Part shown: positions 30,260 through 32,544 of the stretch, piece by piece
Numbering within the stretch: position 1 is the first letter of the stretch
Layout: every line of letters begins with the position of its first letter
IMG/VR virus record: IMGVR_UViG_3300047557_001393
Coordinates: 1 to 34,404 of that record
Direction: 5' to 3' (one strand)
Origin: a virus
Length of the DNA: 34,404 bases
Program-made: the position numbers and the translations under genes
The notes under the pieces: model-generated
The model's database searches: none
Told to the model about the DNA's origin: nothing
What the model saw: the letters and a program-made list of their open reading frames with translations, nothing else

Positions 30260-30588
30260 GCGAGCGACTTCCAGGGCACGTCATCAACATCGTCCCTAGC
30301 GGCCACGAATGGCAGGCCGAGTGTTTCTGCGGCTGGGTAAGCATGTCGGCACCAAGGCTCCGTGAGATAACGCCGCGTGCCGACCTGCACATGACCAACG
30401 CCGCCCTGGTCATCACAGCACGACGCCGCAAGCACGCAGATCCCAACGCACTCCTACGCCACGAATCGCTCGCCCTTGCCCAGCAGCACATCACCCGCTG
30501 CCCAAAGTGCGGCTCCCAGGTGTGGGACGGCGACTGTGGCACCTGCAACCGGCTCGCACGACGACTCGCAAAGGAGGTCGCAGCATGA
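30256..30588 (+). CDS. Small zinc-ribbon-like protein
   Basis: 110 residues. Two Cys pairs: WQAECFCGWVSMSAP near the N terminus and, near the C terminus, RCPKCGSQVWDGDCGTCNR, a four-Cys knuckle pair (C-x2-C-x8-C-x2-C). The middle is helical and basic (ALVITARRRKHADPNALLRH). It might bind nucleic acid or a protein partner. It overlaps both the WhiB and the resolvase genes (ATGA), so it is co-translated with them. Confidence 0.7.
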   Translation: MSERLPGHVINIVPSGHEWQAECFCGWVSMSAPRLREITPRADLHMTNAALVITARRRKHADPNALLRHESLALAQQHITRCPKCGSQVWDGDCGTCNRLARRLAKEVAA

Positions 30589-30947
30589 CCCGCACTCGAG
30601 CAACCGCCAAGCAGGCGGGAGCACGCGCCGAGACCGACGTCGCCAAGTACCTACGCGACACCCAAGACGACGACCGCATTGAACGTCGAGCTCGCAACGG
30701 GTCGAAAGATCGCGGCGACATCAGCGGCGTCCGCACCATGCACGGCTCACGTGTCGTCATCGAGGTCAAGGACTGCGCAAAGGTCGACCTCGCTGGGTGG
30801 GTTGCTGAAGCCGAGATTGAACGCGGCAACGACGACGCCGCTGTCGGTGTCGTGTGGCACAAACGACGCGGCAAGAGCGACCCCGGCGACTGGTACGTCA
30901 CCATGACCGGCGACACATTCACGCGACTGCTGGGCGGTGCGGTGTGA
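30585..30947 (+). CDS. PD-(D/E)XK nuclease, Holliday-junction-resolvase-like
   Basis: 120 residues. AGGAGG lies about eight bases before the ATG at 30585. The order GARAETDVAKYL (Glu16), RNGSKDRGDISGV (Asp45), VVIEVKDCAKVDLAGWVAEA (Glu60-x-Lys62) is the PD-(D/E)XK core of archaeal-Hjc-like resolvases. These cleave branched DNA, which fits recombination-driven replication and clearing of branches before packaging. ATGA/GTGA overlaps on both sides. Confidence 0.87.
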   Translation: MTRTRATAKQAGARAETDVAKYLRDTQDDDRIERRARNGSKDRGDISGVRTMHGSRVVIEVKDCAKVDLAGWVAEAEIERGNDDAAVGVVWHKRRGKSDPGDWYVTMTGDTFTRLLGGAV

Positions 30948-31332: not shown

Positions 31333-31565
31333 TGGGAATCACGGTACGGCGGGCATCGACGGGGAACTGGATTGTGATGCACAGCATCATCGGGGCCGCA
31401 TCGCTTCATCGATTCCTCCTGTGTCTCGATGACACCTACGAGCACATCATCCGCACCTACACGTGCACCAACTGGACCGACGCCATGAGAATCGCCGACG
31501 ACCTCGCAAACGAACGGACCATCGACCCCAACAGGATAATCGCCCTGTCAGAGCGGAGAGTCTAG
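31332..31565 (+). CDS. Small alpha/beta protein, unknown
   Basis: 77 residues: MGITVRRASTGNWIVMHSIIG, then FLLCLDDTYEHIIRTYTCTNWTDAMRIADDLAN, a likely beta-beta-alpha fold, then a basic end. No family recognised. The TAG stop shares its last base with the GTG of the replisome-organizer-like gene, so the two are coupled. Confidence 0.62.
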   Translation: MGITVRRASTGNWIVMHSIIGAASLHRFLLCLDDTYEHIIRTYTCTNWTDAMRIADDLANERTIDPNRIIALSERRV

Positions 31566-32305
31566 TGCCCTGGTTCATGGTTGACGACGCGATCAACACC
31601 GACGAAAAGGTGCTCGCCCTCGACCCCCAGCTCAAAGCAGAAGCAATGGGCACATGGGTCCTCTGCGGCGCCTGGTCATCACAACGACTCAAGGACGGAT
31701 CTGTCCCCAAAGCCATCGTCACAGCCATGGGCGGAACCGACCGTGGAGCCGAAGCACTGGTCGCAACAGGGCTATGGAAGAAGGCTCGCGGCGGCTACCG
31801 ATTCCACAACTGGGAGAAGTTTCAGCGAACGAAGGCACAAGTTGAAGCAAGAAGGGTCGACGAGGCTGAACGCAAGCGGAAGTACCGAGAATCAAAGGGC
31901 CAGGTAAAGCCTGAAAATGTCCCGGACTTGTCCCAACGGGACACCACTGGTGTCCCAGGCGTGTCCGGACACCCCATCCCAGCCCATCCCAGCCCATCCC
32001 AGCCTTTAAATGGGTTAAGTGATCTTGGGGGGTCACCTAAGCAGGGGGCCGAGTTCGCCCCCCAAGCATGTGGACGATCACACGACCCAGCGAAGTCGTG
32101 CGGCGCCTGCGCTACCGCGCGGCGAGAGGCCAGCAACACCGACGCCGCAGTCGAGCGCGAGACCAACAAGCGGCAACGAACAGCCCAGACGCAAGAACGC
32201 CTAGCCCGCCAAGCCGAAGCCGCAGCAACCGAACCCGCATCACCCGAGTTCGTCCAAGCCGCAATAGCCAAAGTCCGAGCAGCCACGAAAGAAGGCAAGT
32301 CATGA
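31565..32305 (+). CDS. Replisome-organizer-like protein (replication initiator candidate)
   Basis: 246 residues from the GTG at 31565. Residues 1-95 (MPWFMVDDAINTDEKVLAL, GTWVLCGAWSSQ, DGSVPKAIVTAMGG, GAEALVATGLWKKARGGYRFHNWEKFQ) have the order of the winged-helix N-terminal domain of phage replication initiators. A basic helix (RKRKYRESKGQ) and a Pro/Ser/Gly-rich linker (about 120-165) follow, then a Cys pair and a charged coiled coil ending KAATKEGKS-like. The linker DNA is full of repeats (see 31915-32070). No helicase loader or DNA polymerase gene was found, so it probably recruits the host replisome. Initiator function is inference. Confidence 0.75.
   Translation: MPWFMVDDAINTDEKVLALDPQLKAEAMGTWVLCGAWSSQRLKDGSVPKAIVTAMGGTDRGAEALVATGLWKKARGGYRFHNWEKFQRTKAQVEARRVDEAERKRKYRESKGQVKPENVPDLSQRDTTGVPGVSGHPIPAHPSPSQPLNGLSDLGGSPKQGAEFAPQACGRSHDPAKSCGACATARREASNTDAAVERETNKRQRTAQTQERLARQAEAAATEPASPEFVQAAIAKVRAATKEGKS
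31915..32070. other. Candidate replication origin inside the initiator-like gene
   Basis: From left to right: palindromes GTCC-C-GGAC (31919-31927), TGTCCC-AAC-GGGACA (31929-31943), GGGACACCA-C-TGGTGTCCC (31938-31956) and GTGTCCGGACAC (31961-31972), all sharing a TGTCC core; three direct copies of CCCATCCCAG (31973-32002); an AT-richer patch CCTTTAAATGGGTTAAG (32003-32019); and a 9-bp inverted repeat CTTGGGGGG / CCCCCCAAG (32024-32032 / 32058-32066). Initiator sites plus AT-rich DNA inside the initiator gene is the lambda-type layout. Structure is seen; origin function is inferred. Confidence 0.6.
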
Positions 32306-32544
32306 ACGACGACGAGAACTACCTCGTGATCACAGGACGGCTTTACCTCGATGAGCGCGGCTTCGTTCAGCGCAACGGAATGCTATATGCAAAGTGGCTA
32401 GCGGCCCATGAACGCAAGGTTGCGGAGACGGCATGGGATCAGGCTCTCGCGTCAATCCGATATGAGAGCGGCGACGCACCCGAGTTCCTCAACAACCCCA
32501 ACCCGTACCGCGCCAATCAACTCAAAGGACGAAGCGATGGTTAA
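32302..32544 (+). CDS. Small protein of unknown function
   Basis: 80 residues from the ATG at 32302, overlapping the previous stop. The start DENYLVITGRLYLDERGFVQRNGMLYAKWLAAHERKVAETAWDQAL reads as strands followed by a helix. The end RANQLKGRSDG is basic. No known family. Coupled with the preceding and next genes by overlaps. Confidence 0.65.
   Translation: MNDDENYLVITGRLYLDERGFVQRNGMLYAKWLAAHERKVAETAWDQALASIRYESGDAPEFLNNPNPYRANQLKGRSDG

Follow-up and report, generated by a model that had tools for sequence, protein, structure and literature searches.

The window analysed here, i.e. the whole 34,404 nt of a 34.4-kb virus record, encodes a terminase, a portal protein, a tape measure protein, an integrase, a RecE-type exonuclease, WhiB and RusA. 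By these genes the record is a temperate tailed phage, and its host is probably actinobacterial. The part of the window considered below carries the following features:

30507–30947, plus strand: RusA-like Holliday junction resolvase gene, a neighbour of the initiator gene (phrog_244, E = 1.8e-30)
31565–32305, plus strand: replication-initiator gene of 246 aa with a GTG start (phrog_2447, AlphaFold2)
31565–31903, plus strand: segment that encodes the N-terminal winged-helix DNA-binding domain (AlphaFold2 model, fold matches)
31918–31971, no strand assigned: six TGTCC/GGACA half-sites in mixed orientation, putative initiator binding sites (5-mer counts)
31972–32004, plus strand: C-rich short-period direct-repeat array, (CCC-N2)6 (repeat search, relatives)
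32005–32025, no strand assigned: AT-rich patch, putative unwinding element (sequence, AT jump in relatives)
32024–32066, plus strand: hairpin with arms 32024–32032 and 32058–32066 and a 25-nt loop beginning TCACC (inverted repeat)
32302–32544, plus strand: small 80-aa gene directly 3′ of the initiator gene (no PHROG match)

The GTG start of the initiator gene overlaps the stop codon of the gene upstream. Its product matches PHROG 2447, ‘replication initiation protein’, with E = 2.2e-47 over residues 1–223, and since this profile match covers most of the protein we place it in that family. Homologues were found in 404 phage records, many of them labelled ‘replication initiation protein’ or ‘RepA-like replication initiator’, and the hosts of these phages are exclusively Mycobacterium, Gordonia, Streptomyces, Arthrobacter, Microbacterium, Propionibacterium and Mycolicibacterium. 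All homologues from the phage collection share <60% identity with the window protein, mostly 28–45%. An AlphaFold2 model built from 53 aligned sequences predicts a winged helix at residues 1–113 (pLDDT about 97; helices H24-40, H49-54 and H59-68, wing E71-74/E77-80), a disordered linker at 115–178 (pLDDT about 50) and C-terminal helices at 180–242. Fold matches of the N-terminal domain were 4pql (Z 6.2), 5kbj and 4pt7 (both Z 6.0), which we take to be N-terminal domains of plasmid initiators of the RepA_N family, and these were tied with many other winged helices. Searching the solved structures by sequence with the initiator returned nothing credible, and a Foldseek search with the model gave no match under 1e-3.

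The genomic setting is one of replication genes. The RusA-like gene places the initiator gene in the context of a replication/recombination module, and in phages Appa, Splinter and 1191A a DnaB-type helicase gene follows the initiator gene as the first or second gene downstream. In phage Giles the position of the small downstream gene is taken by gene 64, which adjoins initiator gene 63; it is an essential gene that has been linked to the replication of phage DNA (PMC5705681).

A preliminary description of this DNA had noticed a repeat cluster in the flexible linker of a winged-helix protein, and positions 31918–32066 are indeed the DNA that codes for the linker modelled as disordered. The repeats it had called four palindromes with a TGTCC core are present, but are better described as six TGTCC/GGACA half-sites, starting at 31918, 31929, 31951 and 31962 in plus orientation and at 31939 and 31967 in minus orientation, with spacings of 11, 10, 12, 11 and 5 within 54 bp. 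The whole 34.4-kb record holds 76 copies of TGTCC/GGACA. Six copies of a 5-mer within 60 nt were found in no other 741-bp segment of the record, and in 0/5000 synonymous-codon permutations of the initiator gene did any 5-mer reach this density. Likewise, the three 10-bp direct repeats reported earlier exist as ATCCCAGCCC-type units, but they are a special case of an array with a 5-bp period, in which the pentamers CCCAT and CCCAG alternate to give six CCC-N2 tracts; CCCNNCCCNNCCCNNCCCNNCCC occurs only at this array in the whole record and in none of 100 dinucleotide shuffles. Two further elements of that description were recovered as such, namely the AT-richer patch, which begins TTTAAATGGGTTAAG directly after the array, and the 9-bp inverted repeat, which is perfect (CTTGGGGGG/CCCCCCAAG). 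The single-strand fold of the hairpin part alone is unremarkable in the window (z = -1.45), and its significance comes from the relatives.

To compare relatives, 22 annotated phage loci and about 276 loci from IMG/VR and GTDB genomes were assembled, and dereplication of the resulting 299 instances at 80% nucleotide identity left 180 representatives. As a single query, the window protein found no relative in IMG/VR or GTDB, and a 19-sequence alignment was too divergent for searching; the loci from these two sources were found by sub-alignments. About three quarters of the some 180 relatives, which are phages and prophages of actinobacteria, share the four-part layout in one order: clade-specific inverted 5-bp half-sites, a 5-6-bp array, an abrupt AT-rich patch and a hairpin. 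Composition skew was left out of the origin argument, since it may merely follow the direction of the genes.

In the 120 nt preceding the array, one 5-mer is present at least five times, both orientations counted, in 62% of the relatives' loci, compared with 6% of synonymous permutations and 3% of control segments. The half-site families differ by clade (GTTCG, TGTCC/GTCCC, GTGAC, CGTTA, GCAAA/GGCAA and others), and half-sites of the same orientation are spaced by 11–12, 22–24, 33–36 and 44–48 bp, a period of about 11.5; at locus L291, for example, GCAAA half-sites follow each other at 12, 12, 12 and 11 bp. Because 11 is not a multiple of three, this spacing is no codon effect. From such phasing we would picture one protomer per slightly more than one helical turn, i.e. 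a phased filament on duplex DNA. Moreover, a half-site family is shared in 4% of comparisons at 20–30% identity of the DNA-binding domain and in 89% at 80–90%, as would be expected if the domain reads the sites, although common descent of one gene predicts the same.

Inverted half-sites also cluster in operators, and winged-helix initiators often autoregulate. The cluster might therefore be an operator or a partition site (for autorepression, immunity or a parS-like function), with replication starting elsewhere. This we find quite improbable: the cluster lies some 350–400 bp inside the gene, far from the gene start, no second such cluster was found in the whole record, and the half-sites constantly go together with an array of short period, a step to AT-rich DNA and a hairpin, all of them features of an origin.

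The array is equally specific to one strand and one place. In the linker region, 137/180 relatives have at least four C3 tracts separated by 1–3 nt on the coding strand and 0/180 have them on the other strand, while the same test gave 7/1014 control windows on the plus strand and 1/1014 on the minus strand, and 18% under synonymous permutation of the same genes. The units are CCCGA in most relatives, and otherwise CCCGT, CCCAT, CCCGG or the hexamers CCCGTA, CCCGAA and CCCAGT. Most of the relatives that fail this test carry the same layout with another short-period array, e.g. (ACCNNN)n in Arib1 and L060, (CCAGT)n in L162 and L168, (CCATT)n in L172 and (GTCTGT)n in L123.

These exceptions bear on the proposal that the array is not read by a protein but acts by folding, holding the origin open as a G-quadruplex of the template or an i-motif of the coding strand. 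At least four G3 tracts with 1-3-nt loops do occur in the window and in 137/180 relatives, always on one fixed strand, and this arrangement of tracts, with loops varying in sequence and length, is the textbook pattern. However, the arrays of the six loci just named are unable to form a stable quadruplex of three tetrads, the period of 5 or 6 is conserved and GGG is not, and about two thirds of the loops are GA, a preference that a quadruplex would not require. Folding as the mode of action is in our judgement unlikely, and a universal G-quadruplex reading was dropped after the loci without CCC tracts were found. Because the exceptions carry short-period arrays other than CCC, the common rule, as far as the compared loci indicate, is a direct repeat of 5–6 bp, normally C-rich on the coding strand, and not a G-quadruplex motif as such.

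It had also been argued that the copy number of the repeat must stay constant for the sake of the reading frame. This holds among close relatives, where the number of tracts is equal in 575 pairs and different in 40, but not for the family, where it ranges from 4 to 12; the frame argument is hence valid over short times only.

Viral contigs were also searched for CCCGACCCGACCCGACCC alone. Among the 80 matches listed, 43 lie within 1.5 kb of an initiator domain, 41 of them on the same strand, and in these listed matches the array mostly lies 364–580 bp downstream of the start of the domain. The other 37 of the 80 listed are not near a recognised initiator, and many of them are low-GC or other tandem-repeat contigs; in one (L311) the contig ends upstream, but what remains resembles the end of an initiator. 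Three GC-rich contigs with CCCGACCCGACCCGACCC and no recognised initiator nearby (L319, L336 and L358) could hold unrelated repeats or other initiator types.

Beyond the array, AT content is 0.61 in the first ten bases against a locus mean of 0.356 (137 loci) and is back within 30 bp. A short hairpin, with a stem of at least 6 bp and a loop of 3–5 nt, was found within 45 nt of the array in 67/136 loci, compared with 108/3896 control segments. This class comprises 61 distinct stems, the closing pair is C-G in 62 cases, and the loops are mostly TAAA, TAAC, TGAC and TAC. When loops were picked by sequence alone and pairing of the flanking positions was scored, these positions paired in 74–84%, against 28–36% with shuffled partners and 25–31% for the same loop motif elsewhere; the stems of the short hairpins covary and the loop is conserved. 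The hairpin of the window is of a second class, whose stem pairs a G-run with a C-run and whose loop is longer; this class was found in 29 of the 70 loci lacking a short hairpin and in 19/537 controls. Further perfect inverted repeats, of 9–10 bp, form the long-loop stem in E1, L282, L288 and L294. The long loops often begin TNACG or TCACC (window 32033–32041, Quico, Vasanti, Phinally, E1 and L282); GGGGGG is followed by TCACCTAAG in the window and by TTACGTCAG in Quico, and these loop starts look like the TNAC loops of the short hairpins. The two classes of hairpin possibly present one shared recognition motif.

A C-rich array confined to the coding strand, together with a hairpin whose TNAN loop is conserved, would also suit an RNA signal, and the segment folds somewhat better than its shuffles (z = -2.2). 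In such a case, a C-rich Rho-utilisation stretch and a hairpin in the mRNA would control transcription or translation of the initiator operon. Yet the helically phased direct half-sites, such as those of L291, point to duplex DNA, and a near-exact tandem repeat is not required by Rho sites. Moreover, an Rfam search of the segment gave no match and no terminator-like site was found on the coding strand. We regard a role at the mRNA level as very unlikely.

Since the elements lie in coding sequence, they might be a by-product of a proline-rich linker peptide, and most arrays do encode Pro-Asp-Pro-Thr-Arg repeats. The encoded peptides are, however, many and use all three reading frames, some being unrelated to this repeat (HPIPAHPSPSQ, SHPFPSLPS, PTPPHPL and PVPSRPVP), and the codon choice of the arrays is forced against the usage of the gene: array-encoded Thr is ACC in 169/169 cases versus 43% elsewhere, and Arg is CGA in 77% versus 13% elsewhere. 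In addition, in five relatives with proteins consisting only of the DNA-binding domain (Propionibacterium phage E1, L176, L284, L288 and L294) the array comes after the stop codon, in non-coding DNA with no continuing initiator frame, which argues that the constraint acts on the DNA and not on the peptide. The parts of the E1 locus are:

L020:1501–1866: reduced initiator of Propionibacterium phage E1
L020:1867–2055: non-coding DNA that follows it, with the array and repeats

On codon usage and arrays past the stop codon the peptide-linker explanation was rejected, and we find it hardly credible. The same five loci are candidates for a natural separation of initiator and origin. L256 had been a further candidate for an array outside the gene and was rejected as an artefact of start assignment caused by an HNH ORF, so that five cases stand; at L256:623–1072 an HNH-endonuclease-like ORF reads in frame from the initiator start, which suggests an HNH insertion in the initiator gene.

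Sites, array, AT-rich patch and hairpin in a fixed order, within an initiator gene and beside replication-gene neighbours, are best read as an origin. The anatomy, DNA-level conservation, covariation and strand bias are directly observed, and the cluster has the layout of an origin inside an initiator gene, i.e. repeated sites internal to the gene, an adjoining AT-rich element and a position in linker-coding DNA. The preliminary suggestion of such an origin gains comparative support from the relatives, where the same four parts recur in the same order across highly diverged initiators. A few loci count against it by departing from the layout. At about nt 420–450 of the L143 gene, the coding strand carries a purine array of GGAAA type (the repeat being on the opposite strand), in L133 a CCATT array precedes the GTGAC half-sites instead of following them (gene nt about 345–370), and inspection of the Giles locus gave no clear array. 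On balance, we consider it highly probable that the cluster is the phage replication origin, set in the linker-coding DNA of its own initiator gene.

In the mechanism we propose, the winged-helix domain would bind the half-sites as a filament, one protomer per 11–12 bp, beside the C-rich track, and assembly of the initiator would melt the AT-rich patch at the far edge of this track. One exposed strand of the array, the C-rich coding or the G-rich template strand, would then be held by the initiator or a loader, and the hairpin beyond the AT-rich patch would offer a strand-specific landing or priming structure to the helicase loader or primase. Finally, the helicase would be recruited by the C-terminal region of the initiator together with the product of the small downstream gene. 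Which protein binds which DNA element in this scheme is an assignment that we infer.

The layout has precedents. In phage lambda, the origin lies in the linker-coding part of gene O and has four iterons of ~20 bp, with dyad-symmetric sites followed by an AT-rich region, and a helicase-recruiting gene lies downstream. The present cluster repeats this layout, as had been claimed, in its linker-coding position and in its symmetric sites followed by an AT-rich region, but the likeness does not extend to sequence homology with O or to ~20-bp iterons: the half-sites here are 10–12 bp apart, and no match to an O-family Pfam domain was found at E ≤ 1 for the window protein or at E ≤ 0.01 for 53 relatives. 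We know of no C-rich array and no conserved-loop hairpin at the lambda origin.

In the Staphylococcus plasmid pSK41, the winged-helix N-terminal domain of Rep binds boxes central in its own gene, the DNA encoding the dispensable Rep linker is the origin, and the C-terminal domain recruits DnaG (PMC5703833). The origin proposed here would be placed in the same part of a winged-helix initiator gene. It differs from the RepA_N systems in belonging to a phage and not a plasmid and in having half-sites 11–12 bp apart in mixed orientation, and a search for the Pfam RepA_N domain in the window protein and 53 relatives gave no match. The C-rich 5-6-bp array and the covarying hairpin are also absent from the account of pSK41 in the available text of PMC5703833. 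For the mycobacteriophages Miko, Rachaly and Jeeves, the available part of PMC7157519 suggests an origin in or beside repA, possibly lambda-like, and gives RepA a length of 320–350 aa with a predicted HTH at 95–132; no repeat layout is described in that part.

A further likeness is to phage replisome organisers and DnaD, which is a matter of the winged helix and of a sub-threshold sequence match (Phage_rep_org_N, PF09681, E = 0.27, 11.6 bits, below the gathering cutoff of 23.3). DnaD recognises a specific single-strand element of oriC, the DRE, which has been proposed to direct strand-specific helicase loading (PMC10201434). The DRE consists of pairs of TnnT, whereas the track here is CC(C)-rich with a 5-6-nt period. 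By this analogy DnaD and the DRE are a possible model for the role of the array, and it is on likeness to the DRE that we suggest array and hairpin may serve as single-strand tracks for a loader or primase.

An origin within its initiator gene is already a known kind, as in lambda O and pSK41 Rep. To our knowledge, the 11.5-bp half-site track, the C-rich array and the conserved-loop hairpin are part of neither of these, and no description of the composite layout, array sequence included, was found in the openly searchable full-text literature. The way in which the helicase would be loaded at this cluster is possibly new. With considerable reserve, we suggest that these loci may form a distinct and widespread class of phage origin, modular in its filament track, C-rich track read as a single strand, unwinding step and TNAN-loop hairpin. 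As a part of this suggestion, and just as tentatively, the C-rich track may be a phage analogue of DnaA-trios and the DRE, and the signal may be under such constraint that the DNA code writes the protein linker.

No mapping of actinobacterial phage origins in this initiator family was found in the literature. For hundreds of phages and prophages, with hosts such as Mycobacterium, Gordonia, Arthrobacter, Microbacterium and Propionibacterium, the sequence rule confines a candidate origin to about 150 bp. With this layout, initiation becomes open to direct tests, and minimal replicons come within reach for vectors of actinobacteria. The layout is also a case of coding sequence written for a function of the DNA, with short-period repeats that rotate through the reading frame, and its array may correspond, in phages, to the single-strand loading elements of oriC in bacteria.

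The C-termini of the initiators are modular across the relatives (e.g. window residues 165–190). Many carry a zinc-finger-like C-x2-H...C-x2-C segment and others are DnaT-like (PF17948 in 2/53), which suggests that helicase-loading tails may have been swapped on one origin-reading head.
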